This document shows positions 17,952 to 56,750 of a DNA stretch of 64,000 bases, piece by piece; within the stretch, counting starts at the first letter, position 1, and each line of letters starts with the position of its first letter. The stretch is from Corynebacterium testudinoris (GTDB lineage Bacteria > Actinomycetota > Actinomycetes > Mycobacteriales > Mycobacteriaceae). Below the pieces are notes generated by a model that saw only the letters and a list, made by a program, of their open reading frames with translations, was not told where the DNA came from and made no database searches. The translations under genes and the position numbers were made by a program. The stretch covers positions 992,001 through 1,056,000 of the forward strand of contig NZ_CP011545.1 in NCBI RefSeq assembly GCF_001021045.1, written 5' to 3'.

Positions 17952-18256
17952 TCATGTAGTTGGCCTCGATGACTACTTCCGAATGGGGAGCAGGGGGGTA
18001 TCGGCGGTTCAATGGACACATGCGCGTGCATATCATCGCTACCGTCAGGACAGCTTTTGGCTACTTCTGTTGCGTCCCGAGGAACGCCGCCATCACACGT
18101 GTCGCGCAACGGAGAAGGACGAACCCTGGGCAGGACCCCGATTGTGAAAACGTAGGTGGGAAGTGCATCGCTCAGGTCTTGGTCTTCACCATCGACCACC
18201 TTTCCCGAAACGTCACGGTAGGAGGCGGCATTCGCATCCTGGCGACCCATTAACGC
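17952..18256. other. 305-bp region with no supported gene
   Basis: Lies between two convergent genes. Several short frames are open on both strands, but none has a start signal, family resemblance or coding-type composition. No clear terminator hairpin is seen. Confidence 0.5.
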
Positions 18257-21190
18257 CTATTCGATGTGACTGCGAGGAAGCCCGCTGTTCTCGACGAGGT
18301 ATTCATAGAGACCTCGTTCTACTTCTGACTCCAGATGAAGGCCCATGGTGACGACATCGTGGATCTTGTCATCCGTTCCAACCATCGTGGTTTGGCGGGG
18401 GTCAGTGCTGTCGGCCTCCCCGAGATAGAAGAAGTCTAATCCATCGGAGTCGCTCTTTTTAACAAACAGGTGCAGGGGCACCTCGTTGGTGATGATGGGT
18501 GTGAGTTCGGAGCTGTCGAGGGTCCGGTCATTTTTGGAGAACCACTTCATGAGCCGGGGGCTGGCGAACTCGTCTTCGTATCGTGTACTCGCGGAGACGT
18601 CGGGGTCCTTGTGATAGGTAACGAAGATGGGGCAGGTGGATGTCACCGTGTCCACCTTGTAGCCAAAGAGGGTGGACTCTTGGTTCTTTTCCCACAGGAG
18701 GAGTCTGCAGGCATCCTTTCGGCTGTATCGGTTGCCAATTACTAAGTCTCCATTCCAGGAGTGCCGTGCTTCGTTGAGATATAGCGCGGTGCTGAGAATG
18801 TCGTCCACGTGCGAGCGGAAAGATTGGGCAGTGTGGGCGCGGTCGCCGCCTTCACGATAGGCGAAATAGAGACTCTTGAACGTCGGATCGAGAGCGTAGG
18901 AATCCCCGTCGATGGAGAGGAAGGAGATGGCACCGTATTGGTTTCGGCGGCGGGCACCGAAAAAGTCAAGGGTGAGGACGCGCTCCGTGGAGTCCAGGAC
19001 GTCGTCAGAATGGGAGGTGCCTAGCTGTTTGAGATGCTGCTGAAATGCAGTTCTGGAGAGGGGGCCGGACTCGAGGAGCTCCTTGATCAGGAGTAGTTCG
19101 TGAGGTCGAAACCCGTTGAGAAGTTCTGTGCTGAGAAACTTGAGGTAGTGCTCTTCCTGCGGAGTGGGACCGATGTCGGTGAGCTTGAAAGAATGAAGCA
19201 GGCTCCAATAATTGCTGTACTTGCTGGCGAGCAGATAGGGATCGATGGTGTCAAAGCGGGCAAAATCGATGAGAAGGGGTATTTGACCCAGCCGGTACTG
19301 AAGATTGAGGATCGCCTCCTTAAACTCGCGCTTACCTGCGAGCCTTGCTTTGGCCAGTGCATCGAGAATTCTGCTCTGCGCGATGCGATCGAAGTTCACG
19401 CTGGAAGTGCCTAAGGTCAGCCCCTCTGCACGAGTGCGAACGATCTTTTCTCGCACGCTTTCCTTGTTGGCTGAATTGTCGCCGGTCAGGGCGATGGGGA
19501 TGAGGTAGTTGTTGGCGTAGTTGCCAATGAAGTCGATGACTCGAAGATGGTCTTTCCCAGCCGCTTTGCGTAAGCCTCTACCGAGTTGTTGGGTGAAAAT
19601 GATGCTTGATTGCGTGCCTCGGAGCATGACGATCTGGTTTACGGAGGGGATGTCAATTCCCTCGTTGAAGATGTCCACGGTGAGCACATAGTCGAGTTCG
19701 CCGGACTCAAGTTTGGCTATGGCATCTTCGCGGGCAGCCTCGGAGTCTGCTCCAGTGAGAGCCACGGTTCGGAGGAGCTGGCCATTGACATAGCGTTGGT
19801 TGAGTGACGTGGAGAGCCGGATCGCTTCCTGTGTTCTACTGCAGAAAATGAGTCCTCTGACCCCGCGGGGATAGCCGTAGACGCGGAGCATCTCGAGGAG
19901 GTAGTCGATTCGGTCGTCGGAAAGAAGTTCTTCCAACGACGACACGTCGTGGGGCACTCGGCCGCGACTATCGGTGAAGTCAGAAATGCCGTAATAGTGG
20001 AACGGCACCAGCATCTTGGATCGGAGTGCATCCTGCAAGCGGATCTCAAAGGGCACGTTGTAGTCGAATAACTCGAAGATGTTAAATCCATCAGTGCGTT
20101 CGGGAGTGGCCGTTAATCCCAACAGAAACTGTGGTTGGAAGTGGTCCAACAAGCGACGGTAGCTTTCGGCGCCGGCACGGTGGACCTCATCGATGATGAT
20201 GTAGTCGAAGGCTCGGGGATCAATAGTTGGCAATGTGTCGGGGCGAGACAGCGACTGGTAGGTGGCGAAGACGTATTTGGCGTCGAGTTGTTTTCGGCCA
20301 CCGACGTAGAAACCGAAGTCGGAGGTTGGGGCGCCGAGGACGCGTCGGAACTCTTCTGATGCCTTGGTGAGGATTTGCTCGCGGTGGACGACGAACAGCA
20401 AGCGTTGGGGTTGTGCCTTCCTGGCCGCCAGAGCGGCCAGGATCGTCTTACCCGTGCCCGTCGCAGAGATGATGACAGCTCGCTTTTCGCCCGCGTCGAC
20501 GACGTTGCCGAGAGCTTCCAGGGCCGCGGATTGCATCATATTGGGGACGATGACGTGCTGGTCATCGGTGACGTCGACCAGGTGATCAGACTGGGCCATG
20601 ATCGTTCTCGGGCGCCGGCTCTGTTCGTAGGTTGTGATCCACTCCAATGACAGCGGCTGGGCTCGGTCCCTTTGCTTGTGCACGGCTCGGTCGAGTTGAT
20701 CGACGATGTGGCCGCCGGGTAGCGCCGAGAAACGCAAGTTCCATTCTTGATTCACCACGAGGGCACTATCCGTGAGGTTGGAGCTGCCGACGATGGCAGT
20801 GACGCCGAAGCCGTGGTGAAAGATGTAGCCCTTGGCGTGGAAGCCGTCCTCGATATCTGGGTGTACGTGAACTGTCACCCGGTCAAGATTGAGAAGCTCT
20901 CGGAATACATCGGGCTCATTGAAGTCAAGGTAGCGGGAGGTAATGATCTCGCCGGTGCCAGGGAATTCATGGAGTGCTTGCTTGAGGATTGCCAGGCCTG
21001 AGCTGGTGATGAAAGCGACCGAGAAGATGAAATGAGACGAGTTTGATAGCTCTTCCCGGATGGCGCGCAGCATCGTGTTGTCATCAGTGTTTGAGATGAG
21101 CACGGGGTTGTGCAGTTGATCCGCTGGCAGAGATCCGTCGAGGAACCCGAATTCGACGTCGCGCGCGATGGAACGGGGTGGGGGTATCAC
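18257..21190 (-). CDS. PLD-nuclease / SF2 helicase / DUF3427 protein
   Basis: The product has 977 residues. Residues about 20-190 form a phospholipase-D-like nuclease domain with FHAKGYIF (His118, Lys120) and IVGSSNLTDSAL. Residues about 210-560 form a superfamily-II helicase: SATGTGKT (242-249), DEVH (334-337), GLTATPERTDG, IFCSRTQEAIR, then FTQQLGRGLRKA. The C-terminal about 350 residues match the DUF3427 type found in such helicases. It probably acts on foreign or damaged DNA. This architecture is known from predicted antiphage loci. The start is GTG 21188-21190, overlapping the NUDIX stop by 4 bases (GTGA), so translation is coupled. Base composition is clearly lower in GC than flanking genes, suggesting horizontal gain. 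Confidence 0.88.
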   Translation of the reverse strand: MIPPPRSIARDVEFGFLDGSLPADQLHNPVLISNTDDNTMLRAIREELSNSSHFIFSVAFITSSGLAILKQALHEFPGTGEIITSRYLDFNEPDVFRELLNLDRVTVHVHPDIEDGFHAKGYIFHHGFGVTAIVGSSNLTDSALVVNQEWNLRFSALPGGHIVDQLDRAVHKQRDRAQPLSLEWITTYEQSRRPRTIMAQSDHLVDVTDDQHVIVPNMMQSAALEALGNVVDAGEKRAVIISATGTGKTILAALAARKAQPQRLLFVVHREQILTKASEEFRRVLGAPTSDFGFYVGGRKQLDAKYVFATYQSLSRPDTLPTIDPRAFDYIIIDEVHRAGAESYRRLLDHFQPQFLLGLTATPERTDGFNIFELFDYNVPFEIRLQDALRSKMLVPFHYYGISDFTDSRGRVPHDVSSLEELLSDDRIDYLLEMLRVYGYPRGVRGLIFCSRTQEAIRLSTSLNQRYVNGQLLRTVALTGADSEAAREDAIAKLESGELDYVLTVDIFNEGIDIPSVNQIVMLRGTQSSIIFTQQLGRGLRKAAGKDHLRVIDFIGNYANNYLIPIALTGDNSANKESVREKIVRTRAEGLTLGTSSVNFDRIAQSRILDALAKARLAGKREFKEAILNLQYRLGQIPLLIDFARFDTIDPYLLASKYSNYWSLLHSFKLTDIGPTPQEEHYLKFLSTELLNGFRPHELLLIKELLESGPLSRTAFQQHLKQLGTSHSDDVLDSTERVLTLDFFGARRRNQYGAISFLSIDGDSYALDPTFKSLYFAYREGGDRAHTAQSFRSHVDDILSTALYLNEARHSWNGDLVIGNRYSRKDACRLLLWEKNQESTLFGYKVDTVTSTCPIFVTYHKDPDVSASTRYEDEFASPRLMKWFSKNDRTLDSSELTPIITNEVPLHLFVKKSDSDGLDFFYLGEADSTDPRQTTMVGTDDKIHDVVTMGLHLESEVERGLYEYLVENSGLPRSHIE

Positions 21191-21585
21191 GAGGCGAATT
21201 TTTCCATGATGATTTCCACGGCGGGCACGTCAGCGGGCGCCCAGTCGACTGAGAGGAGGTCGGCGGGCCGGAGCCAGCGCAAGTCGACGTGCTCGGTCAA
21301 GGTTGGTTCGTCGTGGTTTAGAGCGCAGAAGAAGGTGGTCAGCACGACGGTGCCAAAGTCGTAGTCATGGGCCGTGGTGGTGATGAGGTCGCCGATTGTT
21401 GCCTCGCAGAGGAGTTCCTCCCGGAGTTCGCGGAGGAGGGCGTCTGCTGGGCTTTCGCCGTTTTCGATTTTTCCGCCGGGGAACTCCCATGTCCCGGGGA
21501 GGGCTTTGCCGGGTCCGCGTTGGACGGCGAGGATGAGGCCGTCTCGCACGATGACTGCGCCCACTACCTCTATCCGCTGAGACAT
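21187..21585 (-). CDS. MutT-like NUDIX hydrolase
   Basis: The product has 132 residues. The NUDIX box is complete: GGKIENGESPADALLREL followed by REEL, from residue 37. LPGTWEFPGGK just before it is typical of MutT/8-oxo-dGTP-type enzymes. It hydrolyses nucleoside diphosphates linked to another group, possibly oxidised nucleotides. ATG 21583-21585 is chosen because a strong TATGAT -10 lies exactly 7 bases upstream; an in-frame ATG 12 bases further up falls inside that hexamer. The gene overlaps the PLD-helicase start by 4 bases, so the two form one operon and probably one function. Confidence 0.88.
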   Translation of the reverse strand: MSQRIEVVGAVIVRDGLILAVQRGPGKALPGTWEFPGGKIENGESPADALLRELREELLCEATIGDLITTTAHDYDFGTVVLTTFFCALNHDEPTLTEHVDLRWLRPADLLSVDWAPADVPAVEIIMEKFAS

Positions 21586-21598
21586 AGGGACAATCATA
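21586..21598 (-). promoter_or_regulatory. leaderless promoter of the NUDIX/helicase operon
   Basis: On the minus strand TATGAT (21593-21598) is followed by 7 bases and the ATG, with no ribosome site. Good match to the actinobacterial -10. Confidence 0.65.
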
Positions 21599-23822: not shown

Positions 23823-24580
23823 CCGAACTCATTCGCCTCGACGAGGTGTCCAAGACCTATGGCGCTTTCACCGCCCTGGATTCCGTTTCGCTGACGGCCA
23901 ATTCCGGCGAGGTCACCTGCGTGCTCGGCGACAACGGTGCGGGCAAGTCGACCCTCATCAAGATCTTGGCGGGTCTGCACCAGGCCACGTCCGGCACGAT
24001 GTACGTCTCCGGGGAGGAAGTGAGCTTTTCGACGCCCCGCGATGCCCTCAATGCGGGCATCGCCACCGTCTATCAGGACTTGGCCGTCGTCGGCCAAATG
24101 AGCGTGTGGCGCAACTTCTTCCTCGGCCAGGAAATTGTCGGCGCCTTTGGCCGCCTGCGTGAAGATGAGATGAAAAAGATTGCCGACGAGCAGTTGCGCG
24201 AGATGGGCGTCGACCTCCGCAATGTCGACGTCCCCGTCGCCTCCCTCTCCGGTGGTCAACGTCAGGTCGTCGCCATCGCCCGGGCGATCTATTTCGGCGC
24301 GAAGGTGCTCATCCTCGACGAGCCCACCGCCGCTCTCGGCGTCAAGCAGTCCGGCATGGTCCTGCGCTTCGTCGCCGCAGCCCGCGACCGGGGTATCGGG
24401 GTCATCCTCATCACCCACAACCCCCACCACGCATTCCTGGTCGGCGATCGCTTCATCATGCTCAACCTCGGCCGCCAGGTCCTCGACGCCACCCGCGACG
24501 AAGTGACCTTGGAGGAACTCACCATCCTCATGGCCGGCGGCGGCGAGCTCGACTCACTTAGCCACGAGCTGCGGAGCTAA
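23819..24580 (+). CDS. sugar-type ABC importer, ATPase (single NBD)
   Basis: The product has 253 residues. Walker A GDNGAGKST (about 38-46), signature LSGGQRQVVAIARA and Walker B VLILDEPTAALG are all intact. It has one ATPase domain, like FrcA, rather than two as in RbsA, so it would act as a homodimer. Start ATG 23819 overlaps the permease stop. The 3' end lies inside the 87-bp repeat that bounds the inserted islet. In the ancestral order this gene ended against hutG, overlapping it by 23 bases tail to tail. A fragment of this 3' end is left at 27281-27340. Confidence 0.93.
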   Translation: MTELIRLDEVSKTYGAFTALDSVSLTANSGEVTCVLGDNGAGKSTLIKILAGLHQATSGTMYVSGEEVSFSTPRDALNAGIATVYQDLAVVGQMSVWRNFFLGQEIVGAFGRLREDEMKKIADEQLREMGVDLRNVDVPVASLSGGQRQVVAIARAIYFGAKVLILDEPTAALGVKQSGMVLRFVAAARDRGIGVILITHNPHHAFLVGDRFIMLNLGRQVLDATRDEVTLEELTILMAGGGELDSLSHELRS

Positions 24581-24607
24581 TTTCATCGACGAGGCGGGCG
24601 GCGACCT
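24521..24607. repeat. left copy of 87-bp direct repeat bounding the islet
   Basis: Identical to 27281-27367 except for one base (C at 24538, T at 27298, silent in Gly). Contains the last 60 bases of the ATPase gene and the matching last part of hutG, here only a fragment. The two copies are exactly 2760 bases apart. Confidence 0.95.
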
Positions 24608-24623
24608 GGAAAGCGATTATCGA

Positions 24624-25490
24624 CTACCTGGTCGCTAAAATAATGATCAAAATGACAAACATTAACATTCCGGCAAACATCCAGATCCCCATATTGGTCT
24701 GCGAGCGGAGATCCTTGTCTTTCTTAAGCTCGTCTTCTAGGGTCTGTGAAAAACCTCGCTTCAATGCCCAATCCCGGAAAGATTCTTTACACCCTCCCGC
24801 GACCGCGTTTTTGTAAAGAGGTAGATATCCAGCGAGCGCTTCCTGTCGGCGGCGGTATATTTTAATTCCTCGAATATCGCCTGGCATGTGGCCCAAGAGG
24901 TAACTGATGTCGTTCTGGATATCAAGACTGTTGGAGAATGGTGTCACTGGCTCTGGGAGCTTTGGTACAGGTCTCTGAGGGACAGGCCGGCAGAGGAATT
25001 TGAAGTAGCTCAGATTCTGTGGAAGATCATCGAGATCTACTCCCAGTATGGGATGGCTACGGCTGCTATCGAAGTTGAAGATGTGGAAGGTCTTGAAATT
25101 GGTACTGATTCCATACATGGGCGCAGTCGGGTCTAGATCGGAGAACCCTGCCCTGTAGTCGATGAGTTGAATATCGGCTCGTTTGATATTTACGGGAGGG
25201 CTCTTAGTTTCACCGATGAACAGGCTCCCCATTCGAACGTCTATCCTTCCCGGCGTCTGGGCTACTGGGCGAAAAGCTTGGTGTTCGAAAATGTCCATTT
25301 TCAACGCGTCAAAGCCGAAGCAGCCGAGGAAATCGAGCCAAAATCTTTGCCCGCTGCTCCTTTCTGCTGAGTTGATGGATCCTTCGTTCTTCCATCTTTT
25401 AATTTCTTGCAGCCAATGTTCGCTGAAAAGTACCAATCGTCGTTCGATTTCGTCCGTTGGGACAGTTTTCCAATACGGGTATTGAGACAA
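24624..25490 (-). CDS. membrane-anchored MmeI-N-like PD-(D/E)XK nuclease, putative
   Basis: The product has 288 residues from a TTG start (GGAAG 9 bases upstream). Residues 20-60 (FSEHWLQEIKRWKNEG, QRFWLDFLGCFGF) and the core GRIDVRMGSLFIGETKS resemble the N-terminal nuclease domain of MmeI/type IIL restriction enzymes. Asp84, Glu94 and Lys96 fit a PD-(D/E)XK site, with Gln108 and Tyr112 fitting the QxxxY motif. No methyltransferase domain follows. Instead there is a Pro-rich linker (170-185), a charged helix (250-265) and a C-terminal membrane helix (267-286). It would be a tail-anchored cytoplasmic nuclease. Base composition is much lower in GC than the surroundings. It is the only gene of the islet besides the IS. 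Family call is from motifs only; activity is inference. Confidence 0.6.
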   Translation of the reverse strand: MSQYPYWKTVPTDEIERRLVLFSEHWLQEIKRWKNEGSINSAERSSGQRFWLDFLGCFGFDALKMDIFEHQAFRPVAQTPGRIDVRMGSLFIGETKSPPVNIKRADIQLIDYRAGFSDLDPTAPMYGISTNFKTFHIFNFDSSRSHPILGVDLDDLPQNLSYFKFLCRPVPQRPVPKLPEPVTPFSNSLDIQNDISYLLGHMPGDIRGIKIYRRRQEALAGYLPLYKNAVAGGCKESFRDWALKRGFSQTLEDELKKDKDLRSQTNMGIWMFAGMLMFVILIIILATR

Positions 25491-25667
25491 TTTTATTCGC
25501 TTCCGGTGCTTGACTGAATCTACCGATATTCTATGTCAGGCAGCGGTTTTACATTGCATTGAGCGTGATGGATCTCTCGCTTGCGGGTACTGACTACTCG
25601 ATATAAGGGGTCTGCTGCACGATCAGGTGACAACCGAGCAGCCTAATCAGATGGTTGGGCTGGAAGG

Positions 25668-25970
25668 ATGTACACCGTGACCAAGCCCTATCCCAAAGAG
25701 TTCCGCGATGACGTTGTCCGTGTCGCACGGAATCGTGAGCCCGGTGTCGAGCTCTCCCAGATCGCCAAGGACTTCGGGGTCCACTTCACTACCCTGTACT
25801 CGTGGCTGAAGAAGGCTGACCTCGAGGACGGTGAAGTGTTGGGCTCGACTCAGGTTCAGTCGGCTGAACTGCGCGACGCCAAGAAGAGGATCCGTCTCTT
25901 GGAGCAGGAGAACGAGGTCCTCCGCCGTGCCGCGGCGTATCTCTCGCAGGCCAATCTGCCGGGAAAATGA
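25668..25970 (+). CDS. IS3-family transposase OrfA
   Basis: The product has 100 residues. N-terminal helix-turn-helix (YPKEFRDDVVRVARNREPG, FGVHFTTLYSWLKKAD) for binding the IS ends, then a leucine-zipper-like helix (RIRLLEQENEVLRRAAAYL) as in OrfA proteins of IS3/IS911. The end of the gene has GGGAAAATGATG, a plausible -1 slippage site for making the OrfAB fusion. The orfB frame starts 4 bases before the OrfA stop codon ends. Confidence 0.95.
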   Translation: MYTVTKPYPKEFRDDVVRVARNREPGVELSQIAKDFGVHFTTLYSWLKKADLEDGEVLGSTQVQSAELRDAKKRIRLLEQENEVLRRAAAYLSQANLPGK

Positions 25971-26869
25971 TGTACCCGCTCGTTCGTGAGTTGGCCGTGG
26001 ACGGTGTCCCCGTCACGGTGACGTGTCGGGTGCTCAATCTTGCTCGCCAGCCCTACTACCGGTGGCTGGCGGACCCGATCACCGATGCAGAGCTGAATGA
26101 GGCTTACCGTGCCAATGCCTTGTTCGACGCCCACCGGGATGATCCCGAGTTCGGCTACCGCTATTTGGTGGATGAGGCCCGCGATCTCGGTCAACCGATG
26201 GCAGCGCGCACTGCGTGGCGGATCTGCTCAGACAACCGCTGGTGGTCGGTGTTCGGGAAGAAACGCGGCAAGAACGGTAAGAAGCCCGGTCCACCGGTCC
26301 ACGATGACCTCTGCGCCGTCACCGATGAGGAGGGCAGAACCCGGCACGAGTTCAAGGCCGATGGCGCGAACGAATTGTGGATCGGCGATATCACCGAGCA
26401 CTGGACCAATGAGGGCAAGCTCTACCTCTGTGCGTTCAAGGATGTCTACTCCAACCGGATCGTGGGGTACTCGATCGATTCGCGGATGAAGTCCCGCCTA
26501 GCCGTGGCTGCCCTCAACAACGCGGTCGCCCGCCGCGGCGACGTGGCCGGCTGCGTGGTCCACACCGACCGCGGGTCTCAGTTCCGTAGCCGGAAATTCG
26601 TGCGCGCTCTGGGCATTCACGACATGACCGGATCCATGGGCCGCGTCGGTGCGTGCGGGGACAACGCAGCCATGGAGAGCTTCTTCGCACTCCTGCAGAA
26701 GAACGTCCTCGACCGCCGCGCATGGGCCAGCCGAGAAGAGCTCCGGATCGCCATCGTTACCTGGATCGAGAGGACCTACCACCGACGCCGCAGACAGGAC
26801 CGCCTAGGCCGCTTGACCCCGATCGAGTTCGAGACAATCATGACCACACCAGCCGATCAGGCTGCGTGA
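25967..26869 (+). CDS. IS3-family transposase OrfB (DDE integrase domain)
   Basis: The product has 300 residues. N-terminal HTH_21-type segment (DDPEFGYRYLVDEAR), then a retroviral-integrase-like catalytic core with the first Asp in WIGDITEHW, the second in VHTDRGSQF and the Glu in NAAMESFFALLQKNVL. Lies in the -1 frame relative to orfA and is expressed by frameshift or by the overlapping ATGA. No truncation. Confidence 0.95.
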   Translation: MMYPLVRELAVDGVPVTVTCRVLNLARQPYYRWLADPITDAELNEAYRANALFDAHRDDPEFGYRYLVDEARDLGQPMAARTAWRICSDNRWWSVFGKKRGKNGKKPGPPVHDDLCAVTDEEGRTRHEFKADGANELWIGDITEHWTNEGKLYLCAFKDVYSNRIVGYSIDSRMKSRLAVAALNNAVARRGDVAGCVVHTDRGSQFRSRKFVRALGIHDMTGSMGRVGACGDNAAMESFFALLQKNVLDRRAWASREELRIAIVTWIERTYHRRRRQDRLGRLTPIEFETIMTTPADQAA

Positions 26870-26902
26870 CTAACCACTGTCACCTGATCGTGCAGCAGAC
26901 CC

Positions 26903-27280
26903 AAGAGTCGTTGCATCTTATTTCTTAGAATTTGAAGATCGAGGTCACCTGTCATGCAAAATGTGCGAAGATGCGGCGGGCAGGCGATTGGAAGGGGGGG
27001 TCCTCAAGAGGTGACCCGTGAGTGCAGTCTCTCCAGACAATTCCAGGTGAGTGAGCCGCCGTCATTCATCGGAGGGAATGGTTTTGCCTGCTCCCGAAAA
27101 ACCCAGGTCTTCGTTTGAGTCGAAGCCGGCGAAAGGCTCATTGTCGACGAACACCAGTCCCTCGACTCTCCGAGGTCTTTCAGGGAAATGATCTTGGCAT
27201 CGCGTTGGCGCTCCAAACGAGGTCAATACTCACTAATGATTATTTTCTGTGGCCTTCTGCCGGAGAAGTTAGAAGCGTTT
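26903..27280. other. islet remainder without recognised gene
   Basis: The 378 bases lie between the IS right end and the right 87-bp repeat. Only short frames are open and none has a start signal or family resemblance. Before the IS arrived this was the upstream flank of the nuclease gene. Confidence 0.5.
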
Positions 27281-27367
27281 ACCATCCTCATGGCCGGTGG
27301 CGGCGAGCTCGACTCACTTAGCCACGAGCTGCGGAGCTAATTTCATCGACGAGGCGGGCGGCGACCT
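27281..27367. repeat. right copy of 87-bp direct repeat bounding the islet
   Basis: Contains the intact last part of hutG (stop at 27318-27320) and a leftover fragment of the ABC ATPase 3' end (reading to its stop at 27340). Differs from the left copy only at 27298. Confidence 0.95.
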
Positions 27368-28237
27368 TCGCGGTGCGCCCGTCGATGTCGTAGTCCGGGT
27401 TGAGCTCGACGATATCGACGAGCCGGAGTTTTCCGGTGGCGGCGATGGCGGTGGCCAGCGCGAGGATCCGGGGGAAGTCGACTCCGAGGGCCGCCGGGGC
27501 GCTGACGCCGGGGGCAGTGGCGGCGGGCAGCACGTCGAGGTCGATACTCAGGTGGATCGCATCGTGGTTCTCCGAGAGAGATTCGGCCAGTTCGGTGCAC
27601 TCTTCCAGGGTGAGGGAACCGAGCTTGACGTCGCTGACCACGTGGACCTCGAGGGAGGCGGCGGTGCAAAACAGCTGGCGGGTGTTGTTGGGCCGGGAAA
27701 TACCCAACACGGTGTAGTCGAACTCGGAACCGGCGAGCTCAGCGATCTGCTTAAACGGCGTGCCCGATGACGGTTGATCCGCCTCGCGGAGATCAAAGTG
27801 GGCGTCGAGATTGATGATTGCGGGGGAGTACCCCAATGCTTCCCGGACGCCCCGGTGGCTGCCAAAGGCCGTCTCATGCCCGCCGCCGAGAACGATGACG
27901 AGGTGTCCGGCCTCGACCAGCGAGGCAACCTCGCGGCTGAGGGCCTCATGCCCGGCCTCGAGATCGGTGCCGGGGACGGTGACCGTCCCGGCGTCGTAAA
28001 GCGGGGTGTTTTGGTGGACTGCCAGGGAGGCGAGAGCGGAACGGATGGCGTCGGGACCGGCCGCGGCGCCCGGACGGCCCCCATTGCGGCGGACGCCCTC
28101 GTCGCAGGCGAAGCCCAGCAGGGCGATTCCTGGGGCAGGCTGGGGGGCAGAGATGGTGGAGTGCCAGCGGGCATGCTCGATGCCGGGGCCGTCGTTACGC
28201 CCGGTCCAAGGCGTGGGGGGAATGATCATCTCGGTCA
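27318..28237 (-). CDS. hutG: formimidoylglutamase (arginase family)
   Basis: The product has 306 residues. Converts N-formimidoyl-L-glutamate to glutamate and formamide, the last step of one histidine degradation route. Arginase-family manganese ligands are visible in GGGHETAFGSH, INLDAHFDLR and SIDLDVLPAATAPGVSAP. Start ATG 28235-28237 (TEMIIPPTPW) has no ribosome site. TATTGT lies 8 bases upstream, so the mRNA is probably leaderless. Divergent from hutR, with a HutR-type palindrome in the 89-bp gap. The last codons lie in the 87-bp repeat. Confidence 0.93.
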
Positions 28238-52998: not shown

Positions 52999-53030
52999 CC
53001 GACATGGGGAAGGCTCTTGCCCCATGTCGG
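52999..53030. promoter_or_regulatory. 11-bp inverted repeat over the DUF937 promoter
   Basis: CCGACATGGGG (52999-53009) and CCCCATGTCGG (53020-53030) are perfect complements with a 10-base loop. No T-run follows on either strand. For the minus-strand DUF937 gene it would cover the -35 region, so an operator is more likely than a terminator. Confidence 0.45.
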
Positions 53031-53546
53031 ACTGCGCCCATCGGTTTTGGATATGGACTTCCGCGAACCGGTGAGCCAGTGCGATTAGCGTGCCGTATTT
53101 CGACCTTGGACGTGTCCCTGAGAGGAGTGCGGCCGATCGCGTTGTAGTTCGTCTAGGTGCTGGCACCGGTTACTCATTGGTGAGCGTGACCAACGACGCG
53201 CCAGAGCAAATGATCGGTGGATACTGGCCTCCCTCCAAATTCGGCCCTACACACGAACTGGCATGAAGGTTTGTGCTTGTGTCCGACGAGATCTTCGTGG
53301 GCGCTGCTTGATTGATTCCCGGATGCCCAGGGGTTCAATGTGCGAGACTTATACTGACGACAAGCCTAGGCGAGATCGTGATGGGTGATGTATCACAAGT
53401 ATTCCTCCAAGTCATCTATTCGTACTCGCGGTTAAACCGTCTTTTCCGCCAGGAAAGCCCAGCTTGTTCTTAAAACATTTAGCTCCGGTCTCGCGAGACC
53501 ATCCATTACATCCCGGGAAACAGTAAAAGAATTGAAGGGACTATCT
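53031..53546. other. 516-bp region with no supported gene
   Basis: GC falls from left to right. Short frames only. Its end holds the GAAGGGA ribosome site of the lipoprotein gene. Confidence 0.5.
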
Positions 53547-54431
53547 ATGAAAAAAAGCCTCGTACTGGCGTCAATCATGGCTCCAATGCTCCTTATTGGA
53601 GTCGTAGCTTGTACACAAGGAAACGGTGGTGTCGAGTCAGAACCAACCACGACGATTGATGAGGAGGTCTCGAATGGCGCGACTGCTCAGCTTGGAGATC
53701 TAAGTAAAGGTGTGGAGGGGCAAGTAGGATTTCGACACGGCATGGACTGTACTGACGTTTCCGATTGTTCAATCAACTTTACTGTGGAATCGCTCGATCT
53801 GCTGGAGATGTGCGAAGGAACAGTTTTTGGCGAGCAGCCTTCAGGAACTCACCTCGTTAAAGCGACTGTTCTTCTGGAAACAAAGCCATCCGACTCTGAC
53901 TATCGTCCTGGTGAATTCCCGATTTGGTCGGATTGGTCAGCATTGGACAAAGAAGGAATCAACCAAGAGCTTCCCCAGTCTTCTTGGTGTTCACCATCGA
54001 CGCGTGAGCAAGCTTGGAGGGAAACGATGCAAGTCGGAGATACTGAACGGAGGGTTCACATTATGGATGTTCCTGATGGTGCTTCAAAGATTCGATTGAC
54101 GGAAACCCTAAATGGTGCGAGGTGGGAATTCCCGGCTCCCGATGCGTCTGCAACGCGTGCCTCACTCGACGAGGTAGGTCCCGCGCAAGAGCCAGGCCCA
54201 ACGCCCAATTTTGCTCACACGCCGGCGCCGGTCGCGCCAGCCCCTCGTCCAACTCCGGAAGCGTCTCCCGTTGTTGGTTTTACTGGAGCTCCTGGCGTAG
54301 AAGCACCTAGAGTTCTCGATAAGCAAGTCTCTCACTGTGGGGACCCTCAAATTCACCAAACCGGTACCACATTTTTCACCGATGGAACCTCTGGATGGAC
54401 TGAGGTTTGTAGCAACCAGATGCTCCAGTAG
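53547..54431 (+). CDS. lipoprotein with Pro-rich C-terminal region
   Basis: The product has 294 residues. Lipoprotein signal KKSLVLASIMAPMLLIGVVAC with the Cys at residue 22. A beta-rich domain follows with four cysteines (CTDVSDC, EMCEGTVF and SSWC), resembling DUF4352-like extracellular domains: HLVKATVLLETKPSD. Then a Pro/Ala linker (about 222-250) and a short tail with two further cysteines. Anchored outside the membrane. Clearly lower in GC than the neighbouring core genes, suggesting recent gain. GAAGGGA is the ribosome site. Function unknown. Confidence 0.75.
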   Translation: MKKSLVLASIMAPMLLIGVVACTQGNGGVESEPTTTIDEEVSNGATAQLGDLSKGVEGQVGFRHGMDCTDVSDCSINFTVESLDLLEMCEGTVFGEQPSGTHLVKATVLLETKPSDSDYRPGEFPIWSDWSALDKEGINQELPQSSWCSPSTREQAWRETMQVGDTERRVHIMDVPDGASKIRLTETLNGARWEFPAPDASATRASLDEVGPAQEPGPTPNFAHTPAPVAPAPRPTPEASPVVGFTGAPGVEAPRVLDKQVSHCGDPQIHQTGTTFFTDGTSGWTEVCSNQMLQ

Positions 54432-54944
54432 TTGAATAGCTCGTGTTTTGCAAAGAGCCTCCAGAAATGAACGAATTTCAGATGTTTAACTGAGAAGGTT
54501 ATCGGCACAGTAAAGGGTCTAGTCGCGCTGTGCCTTAGTGGGGATGGAGATCACCGAAAAAAATGGGGATGCTAAATAGTGTAAAGAAGCTATCTAGGGA
54601 ACTTCGGGTATCAATCTGTAGAGAACCATTGACCTAACAAGCTTTGTGCTGTGCATCTTTAATGGATCCTAGGACTTCACGTGTCCGCAATGGACTTTAT
54701 AATTCCTCTAGATAAATGAATTCTGACATAGAGCTCGACGGTGCAATCGCAGGTAGTTTTCCCCTAAGGTATCGACTCTGCGGCATCTGACACTAAATCC
54801 TGTTCGGATATTTGCCGCCTTCATTAAGCTCGAATTTACTTCGAACAGTTTGCCAGTCGGCGATCCTGGCGGCGATCGACTGATATTTCGTTGCCGTCCG
54901 CCGCCAGTTGACTAGCAGACTATGCTAGCTGCAGTTTAGTCAGA
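54432..54944. other. 513-bp low-GC region without gene
   Basis: Between the convergent lipoprotein and monooxygenase genes. AT-rich, all frames closed quickly, no strong hairpin. Probably decayed foreign DNA. Confidence 0.5.
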
Positions 54945-56750
54945 TTATTGATCTCTAGTGTTGTCGTAGACCGGTGTCTCCATACCTTCGTATCGAGCCT
55001 TGAGCTGCATGGACAGGTACCTCGAATAGTGCCGTGACTGATGGAGGTTACCGCCGTGGAACCACAGCCCGTCTACTGCCGTCGGCTTCCACATGTTCCG
55101 CAATTCACCTTCCCACGGGCCCGGATCCTTCGTGGTGTCCGAACCCAAGCCCCAGCACGGCCCGACTTGATCAGCGACTTCTTGGCTGATCAGTTGGGCG
55201 GCCCAGTTGTTCATGTTCCCGTACCCGGTGGCCAGGACGATGACGTCGGCAGGCAACTCGGTGCCGTCGGACAGCACTACGGAGCGCTCCCGGACTTCCT
55301 CGATGTTGACTCGCGAGCGAACCGGGATCTCTCCACTGGCGACGAGCTCGGAGGCACCGACATCGATGTAGTAGCCGGAACCGCGCCGCAGGTACTTGAG
55401 GAACAACCCCGAATCATCATCACCGAAGTCGAGGAGGAAACCTGCTTTCTCCAATCGATCGTAGAAGTCCTTATCGATCTCCCGGACCTTGTCAAAGGCT
55501 ACCTTCTGTACCTCGGGCAGAACCTTGTACGGCCACGAAGCAAAGAGCAGGTCGGCGGTGTCGGTATCCACCCCGGCTTCCAGAGCTTCCTCGGAATACA
55601 GGGGCCCGAAAACCTCCTGCATGAGCGTCTCGGAACGCACGATGTGGGTCGAGGAGCGCTGAATCATCACCGGACGAGCACCGTTGTCATAGAGGTCCGC
55701 GCAGATGTCGTGGGCCGAGTTGTTCGCACCCAACACGACGACATCCTTATCCCGATCAACCTCACCTCCAGCATGCTCGGAAGAGTGTCGGATCTCCCCG
55801 TGGAAGCTATCCTCACCCGGCAGTGAGGGCCGGTTCGGCACACCTGACATCCCCGTCGCTAGGACAAGCTGAGCGGGATGGAGGGTCATCTCGGCGCCAT
55901 CCCGATTAACGGTGACATCCCAGCGGTTCTCGGCCTCGTTGTAACTGGCTCGCACGCACTCCGTCCTCGTCCAGTAGTCCAAGTCCATGATTCCGACATA
56001 GTGTTCGAGCCAGTCACCCATCTTGTCCTTAGGGGTGAACACTGGCCAGTCATCTGGGAAGGGCAGGTAAGGGAGGTGGTCGTACCAGACCGGATCGTGG
56101 AGGCAGAGTGAGTGGTAGCGACCGCGCCACTGGTCACCGGGGCGCGCGGCCTTGTCCAAAATGAGGGCGGGCACCCCCAGGCGCTTCAGCCGTGCACCCA
56201 GAGCGATGCCGCCCTGACCGCCTCCCACGATGAGAACATAGGGTTGCTCCGTCACACCGAGTGCGTTCTGACGATCGAGTTTCTTGTCCGCCCAGTTCCG
56301 CTTGTCGGCGCTTTGCCCATGTTCCGCACCCAGCGGACGACGCCGACCGCTCGGTTCTGGGAATTGCCTCAACTCGCGCGCCGAGGTGAGCATGGTCCAC
56401 GCCTTGCCGTTACGAAGACGCACGATGCCCGTGCAACGGAAGTCCTGGGAGTCGCAGGAGAACTTGACGCGCGTGACGCCGTTTCCCTCATCAACCGGTT
56501 CGCCGTCCAGGACAACATTGCTCAACCTGCTGGCAGGCCACGTTGTGCGGATCATCTCCGCAATCTCTTCCGCCCCTTCGGCGGTGGTGATGTTCCAAGT
56601 GAAGGCGAGCAGATCCCGCCAGTATCCCTCGGTTTCAAACAGCTCGCTTATTGCCGTGGCGGCGGTAGCAGCGTCAGAAGCTCCACCCGCCTGCTCCAAC
56701 GAGTGGAGCCACTCGGTTGCCGTGTCCTTCACGTCGATGACCTTGGTCAT
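54945..56750 (-). CDS. flavin-dependent monooxygenase with N-terminal SnoaL/NTF2-like domain
   Basis: The product has 601 residues. Residues 1-145 look like an NTF2/SnoaL-type domain (AISELFETEGYWRDLLAFTW). Residues about 165-595 are an FMO/YUCCA-like enzyme: FAD site VGGGQGGIALGARL, FMO-like FHGEIRHSSEH, NAD(P)H site VLGANNSAHDICADL and VIVLATGYGNMNNW near the end. It inserts one oxygen atom into an organic substrate (hydroxylation, N-oxidation or Baeyer-Villiger type); the substrate is unknown. No pathway genes are adjacent. Confidence 0.88.
   Translation of the reverse strand: MTKVIDVKDTATEWLHSLEQAGGASDAATAATAISELFETEGYWRDLLAFTWNITTAEGAEEIAEMIRTTWPASRLSNVVLDGEPVDEGNGVTRVKFSCDSQDFRCTGIVRLRNGKAWTMLTSARELRQFPEPSGRRRPLGAEHGQSADKRNWADKKLDRQNALGVTEQPYVLIVGGGQGGIALGARLKRLGVPALILDKAARPGDQWRGRYHSLCLHDPVWYDHLPYLPFPDDWPVFTPKDKMGDWLEHYVGIMDLDYWTRTECVRASYNEAENRWDVTVNRDGAEMTLHPAQLVLATGMSGVPNRPSLPGEDSFHGEIRHSSEHAGGEVDRDKDVVVLGANNSAHDICADLYDNGARPVMIQRSSTHIVRSETLMQEVFGPLYSEEALEAGVDTDTADLLFASWPYKVLPEVQKVAFDKVREIDKDFYDRLEKAGFLLDFGDDDSGLFLKYLRRGSGYYIDVGASELVASGEIPVRSRVNIEEVRERSVVLSDGTELPADVIVLATGYGNMNNWAAQLISQEVADQVGPCWGLGSDTTKDPGPWEGELRNMWKPTAVDGLWFHGGNLHQSRHYSRYLSMQLKARYEGMETPVYDNTRDQ

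Follow-up and report, generated by a model that had tools for sequence, protein, structure and literature searches.

Restriction nucleases are normally safe for their host through methylation of host sites. The closest described systems to the locus reported here are the type IIL enzymes MmeI and DrdV, to which the type IIG enzyme BpuSI is related, and their N-terminal PD-(D/E)XK domain, catalytic residues, and fold are shared by a small protein encoded in the window of the Corynebacterium testudinoris genome that we analyzed (the whole 64-kb stretch of DNA, bases 992001 to 1056000 of a single contig of 2.72 Mb). Unlike the type IIL enzymes, the window protein has no helical spacer, methyltransferase, target recognition domain, or C-terminal bundle, and it possesses instead a new tail of approximately 120 residues bearing one predicted membrane helix. 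Two other groups of nucleases can be compared with it, mammalian TREX1, which is an exonuclease of another fold, and the CoCoNuTs and McrBC-type IV systems, which are GTPase-based. According to published abstracts, TREX1 is likewise a DNase that a C-terminal helix keeps on a membrane and whose substrate is cytosolic DNA (PMC11904002, PMC12316019); it belongs to the eukaryotic endoplasmic reticulum, and the likeness is an analogy only. The CoCoNuT and McrBC-type IV nucleases are, as here, restriction-type nucleases outside classical restriction-modification, and the texts on them contain the terms "transmembrane helix" and "PD-D"; however, CoCoNuTs are McrBC-derived and combine coiled-coil and nuclease parts, and the excerpted descriptions include no MmeI_N domain (PMC11090510, PMC10542128).

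The nuclease gene has the position, strand, and length given in the initial annotation (Table 1), which had also described it as low in GC. The GC content of the open reading frame (ORF) is 48.6%, versus 0.60 to 0.69 in 49 of the 64 one-kilobase blocks of the window. The protein database entry (P0001) is a shorter version of 270 amino acids that starts from an in-frame TTG 18 codons downstream, but the N termini of the relatives align to the longer form, which favors the 288-residue start over the database start. The database cluster of this protein holds 5 member sequences on 2 contigs, which may be several records of one genome.

Table 1. Coordinates of the nuclease gene, its parts, and the surrounding features (window numbering)
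Feature	Position	Strand	Description
PLD-helicase-DUF3427 gene	18257-21190	minus	977 aa; PADLOC type IV methyl-directed restriction enzyme, E 1.7e-219
NUDIX gene	21187-21597	minus	PDC-S07 match, E 1.3e-50; adjoins PLD-helicase-DUF3427 gene
Left 87-bp direct repeat	24521-24607		covers the end of the ABC ATPase gene plus a duplicated arginase-family gene end
Islet	24608-27280		inserted; absent at the equivalent place in G029
Nuclease gene	24624-25490	minus	288 aa, TTG start; stand-alone MmeI_N (PD-(D/E)XK) with C-terminal transmembrane helix (predicted)
C-terminal region	24627-24989	minus	residues 168-288; no convincing homologue found
Predicted membrane helix	24630-24695	minus	model residues 265-286 of 287 (266-287 with start codon)
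MmeI_N nuclease domain	24990-25427	minus	residues 22-167; D84/E94/K96 layout; E43, Q108, Y112 conserved
IS3-family insertion sequence	25608-26902	plus	1,295 bp; perfect inverted repeats of 25 bp; flanked by AAG at either end
Rest of islet	26903-27280	minus	378 bp; short open frames only (six frames)
Right 87-bp direct repeat	27281-27367		99% identical to left copy
Short/broken type IIL loci across the genus	L008, L016-L027, L029-L035, L069

The assignment of the N-terminal part to the MmeI/type IIL nuclease domains, made initially from residue layout, was borne out by Pfam, PADLOC, PDB sequence, and fold comparisons. The Pfam match (MmeI_N, PF20464; residues 22 to 167; E 6.6e-12) exceeds the curated cut-off of the family (46.5 versus 27 bits), and the PADLOC match (REase_MTase_IIG; residues 14 to 168; E 1.6e-14) is to models of type IIG enzymes aligned over the nuclease part alone. 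Among PDB sequences the protein matches MmeI (5hr4; residues 30 to 173; E 1.4e-5). The predicted structure has pLDDT block means of at least 89 across residues 11 to 160, and fold comparison of this model retrieved PD-(D/E)XK nucleases, with type IIG/IIL enzymes ranked top. The protein thus combines a restriction-endonuclease-like fold with the Asp...Glu-x-Lys set of the PD-(D/E)XK superfamily. A plain Foldseek search of the model and a comparison with a viral structure library each returned nothing at an E value of ≤0.001, and an NCBIfam scan of the protein gave zero matches.

Alanine mutants of D70, E80, and K82 in MmeI abolish cleavage, as stated in the report on that enzyme (PMC4833311), and the window protein retains all three equivalents. 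The layout recognized at the outset (Asp84, Glu94-x-Lys96, Gln108, and Tyr112) is retained in full. D84, E94, and K96 are invariant throughout every row of alignments A1 and A2, and Gln108 does not vary among the 13 genus rows. In alignment A2 (17 rows, columns counted up to residue 171), nine columns are invariant across the 16 other rows, of which the window protein retains seven (E43, D84, E94, K96, Y112, P124, and F132), with changes at G78 (to Q) and L102 (to I). It has lost 9 of the 31 genus-invariant columns. The initial annotation would have been contradicted by a fold outside PD-(D/E)XK or by homologues lacking the catalytic residues; neither was the case, the fold comparison pointing to PD-(D/E)XK nucleases and the three residues being invariant among the aligned relatives.

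The absence of methyltransferase and specificity domains, likewise claimed from the start, was confirmed by a Pfam scan of the protein (limit E 10), which returned only MmeI_N and no spacer, methyltransferase, target recognition, or C-terminal domain. The helical spacer of the type IIL enzymes (MmeI_hel, PF20465) is missing here, and all 4 scanned genus relatives match it, one of them weakly. The chain, at 288 amino acids, has no match to MmeI_Mtase, the gamma-class N6-adenine methyltransferase that type IIL enzymes carry in the same chain, or to MmeI_TRD. Its closest relatives come from the same genus and are type IIL-like, exemplified by the full-length 943-residue protein of G878, in which MmeI_N, MmeI_hel, MmeI_Mtase, MmeI_TRD, and MmeI_C are all present.

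Past residue 167, the model runs through a proline-rich linker and several helices, modeled with low to middling confidence, into a hydrophobic helix. The single C-terminal membrane helix of the initial annotation stands as a prediction: the model places it at residues 265 to 286, and the only 19-residue windows with a mean hydropathy of at least 1.6 start at residues 264 to 270 (maximum, 2.71), versus a best value of 1.05 elsewhere. A lone hydrophobic helix at the extreme C terminus, with the stop codon directly after it, is the arrangement of a tail-anchored protein. The first 40 residues contain no hydrophobic stretch (best window, −0.2). The nuclease had been placed at the cell surface, and this should read "on the cytosolic face": with the helix at the extreme C terminus and no hydrophobic stretch at the N terminus, the N-terminal nuclease would face the cytosol, with the tail in the inner membrane. 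The charges flanking the helix do not decide its orientation. The C-terminal 121 codons, a stretch that was picked after the fact, were simulated 20,000 times under a first-order Markov model; 88 of the simulated sequences were free of stops and 2 reached a hydropathy of 2.71, and it is unlikely that the hydrophobic helix is an accident of base composition.

The origin of the tail was sought by similarity. Residues 160 to 287 (start codon uncounted) were compared with 5.8 billion clustered proteins, and the only hit among the 88 candidates scored was the gene itself. A search of 300 other family genomes gave nothing convincing. The possibility that the tail is the C-terminal part of MmeI left after an internal deletion was rejected because those 300 genomes yielded only two weak short matches (E 0.003 and 0.007). 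Modeled alone from one sequence, the tail gave a poor structure (mean pLDDT, 60.6), and a fold comparison of this model (2 chains compared) found nothing.

The genome-wide search suggested by the initial annotation, for homologues keeping both the nuclease core and the C-terminal helix, produced no convincing second example; the protein is therefore a singleton rather than a family, and selection on the protein as a whole is consequently without comparative proof. In the same genus (242 genomes, E ≤ 1e-8), matches were found in 50 genomes at 56 places, one being the gene in the window, and at the 55 other places every match ends by query residue 180. Open frames of at least 900 amino acids occur at 29 of these 55 places, the domain scan covering G878 only, and frames below 900 amino acids at the remaining 26, at least 4 of which are accounted for by a contig end (G061, G198, G017, and G110). 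Short or broken type IIL genes are thus common in the genus. Twenty-two of the 26 were examined (all but those of G061, G180, and G145 and one of G884). By eye, 11 continue into the MmeI spacer, the other 11 are interrupted or change frame within the nuclease domain or shortly past it, and a C-terminal membrane helix was seen in none of the 22 (by hydropathy for 21 and by eye for G858).

In wider searches, PF20464 was present in 25 of 396 genomes of the phylum set (E ≤ 1e-3), 18 of them exceeding the cut-off, and, at E ≤ 1e-5, in 13 of the 394 genomes of the class set, the source genome being included in both counts. Five shorter frames of the phylum set (G842, G601, G633, G820, and G767) read by eye as truncated MmeI-like proteins, that of G633 lying at a contig end; the by-eye set excludes the shorter frames of G768 (99 aa, phylum) and G1083 (161 aa, class). 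A profile search over 6,043 candidates, which were proteins of approximately 158 to 502 amino acids having short words in common with the query rows, gave 312 proteins at E ≤ 1e-3, and the best 120 of these 312 were screened for hydropathy. A window of at least 1.6 occurs in ten of these 120 listed proteins, the highest being P0054 (2.72), the window's own protein P0001 (2.71), and P0039 (2.12). Neither of the other two was accepted as a second example. P0054 is read as a likely chimera, its second half being a Pfam permease domain (PF00860). P0039 is read as a frame-shifted fragment, whose hydrophobic stretch lies near the C terminus, after MmeI_hel and just past the point where the MmeI-like sequence ends.

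Pattern scans of genome contigs and viral contigs with the protein, which detect close relatives only, found no relative. Phage records contained at E ≤ 0.01 only a 927-residue protein of Leptospira phage LE1 (two records), with one Vibrio phage record more at E ≤ 10 (E 10). Among plasmid records, 24 matches were obtained; each is below 60% identity and covers less than 80% of the query, and no match extends beyond residue 166. The DNA at 24608 to 25607 matched nothing but 23 bp in G086 among 200 other genomes of the genus. In the literature, the titles and abstract openings listed, with few subscription papers among them, mention no stand-alone or membrane-anchored MmeI domain.

Phylogenetic analyses place the nuclease domain within the type IIL proteins of the genus. 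In the first tree it is beside G122 and G050 (94/87) inside a genus clade (90/80), and in the second it falls inside a genus clade (96/87), beside G878, G122, and G050 in no settled order. The end branch of the window protein is 3.3 and 2.1 changes per column in the two trees, respectively (medians, about 0.1), a length at which the tree program warns that placement is unsure. The simplest reading is that the domain descends from the type IIL group of the genus, was detached, gained a new tail, and changed fast with its catalytic residues held. Seven of the nine invariant columns survive this long branch, and decay would presumably have erased them. The same genome holds a further MmeI_N remnant, interrupted by two stops (1394019 to 1394429, minus strand; L028 and L071), approximately 2.1 kb from another IS3 copy at 1396555.

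We propose that the gene encodes a live, cytosolic-facing, tail-anchored DNA endonuclease, built from a split-off type IIL nuclease domain, a new linker, and a membrane helix, and we put the probability of this reading at about 0.5. The domain matches, the fold, the catalytic set, the seven retained columns, the non-random tail, the type IIL clade, the islet, and the type IV neighbor described below all speak for it. The singleton status, the very long branch, and the nine lost genus-invariant columns speak against it, as do the insertion sequence 117 bp upstream, the empty plain Foldseek search, and a simple sigma-70 scan of 24450 to 27450, which found two promoter-like sites (1.3 expected), none of them upstream of the nuclease gene on the minus strand.

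The main rival, which we consider unlikely, is that the gene is a decayed remnant without selected function, in which the 5′ part of a type IIL gene, spared by a deletion or recombination, became joined by chance to coding DNA of another origin, the source of the tail. The frequency of short or broken type IIL genes in the genus and the stop-bearing remnant elsewhere in the genome would suit such an origin, and so would the lone occurrence, long branch, adjacent insertion sequence, and lack of an upstream promoter-like site. P0039, as read here, further illustrates that a chance hydrophobic end can arise when the frame of an MmeI-like gene changes. However, the catalytic set has been retained although most positions changed on the branch, and the C-terminal frame is open and ends in a strong helix with an immediate stop, whereas the 22 short relatives run into the spacer or break in or soon after the domain, none with such a helix.

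The gene lies in an inserted islet, as the initial annotation had proposed, flanked by 87-bp direct repeats, with an ABC transporter ATPase gene on one side and an arginase-family gene on the other, the reading frames of both being left whole. Of the 200 other genus genomes searched, the relative G029 matches the locus best; it is collinear on both sides at 84 to 87% DNA identity and carries the 87-bp sequence once, uninterrupted (L059, 9309 to 9395); the islet was therefore gained. At 87 bp, the duplication exceeds the usual footprint of transposition, and it would suit recombination between short homologies or a site-specific integrase since lost. A tRNA/Rfam search of the window gave a single match, at 58.4 kb. 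The IS3-family element within the islet is present in 9 full copies in the genome at 100% (rounded) identity, the islet copy included, and its spread is therefore recent. An 893-bp partial copy of the element abuts a full copy, and a 100-bp piece is found elsewhere in the genome.

The direct repeats and the precise empty site suggest that the islet was once mobile, and the nuclease might accordingly have an element-borne role not directed against phage, aiding the transfer of the islet or excluding competing elements. We regard this as improbable: the islet ORFs of at least 80 amino acids include no integrase, relaxase, or other transfer gene and no transposase genes except those of the inserted element itself, the islet DNA is unmatched in plasmid records, and the 87-bp repeat, used as the query, is unmatched in phage records. 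The 378 bp between the insertion sequence and the right repeat are possibly decayed. They contain, at 27007 to 27229 on the minus strand beside the repeat, two overlapping short open frames of 55 and 72 amino acids, which could be pieces of one decayed gene. The least probable explanation, that the nuclease was the effector of a two-gene system whose upstream sensor or antidote partner was broken by the insertion sequence or by decay, draws on this non-coding-looking stretch, its minus-strand frames, and its separation from the nuclease gene by the insertion sequence, but a Pfam scan of the two fragments gave zero matches, the 378 bp have no similar DNA elsewhere in the genome or in plasmid records, and there is no relative in which an intact partner could be seen.

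The nuclease gene has a type IV restriction-like gene 3.4 kb to its left, which a NUDIX gene adjoins (Table 1), and these neighbors lend weak support to a defense setting. Window positions 18001 to 21216 have no DNA match in the aligned stretch of G029, and the pair may be variable too. Elsewhere in the window, GC falls to about 0.50 to 0.52 at 53001 to 55000, around a 299-residue ORF whose start resembles a lipoprotein signal by eye.

If the tail-anchored nuclease is live, for which the odds are about even, a role in defense is a further step with lower odds. It is doubtful, though conceivable, that the protein represents a new use of a restriction nuclease, in which a type IIL cutter without modification or recognition parts gains safety and selectivity from an inner-membrane tether and cuts incoming DNA. 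An isolated MmeI-type domain is not known to have a DNA specificity of its own, which speaks against the proposed endonuclease. The gene would be expressed, and the tail would insert in the inner membrane, leaving the nuclease on the cytosolic side. Single copies would be only weakly active, since MmeI requires a dimer for cleavage of both strands (PMC4833311). Copies crowded on the membrane near entering DNA, from phage or plasmid, might then pair and cut. The tether would take the place of sequence recognition as the limit on self-damage, and the host would be spared through the location of the nuclease and its low intrinsic affinity, since the protein has no methyltransferase.

The locus offers an example of a type IIL nuclease domain that appears to have been rebuilt into something else, in a genus rich in short and broken type IIL genes. 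A lone MmeI-type nuclease with an anchor and without a methyltransferase would need to tell self from non-self by place and not by sequence, and one small gene would make that question testable.
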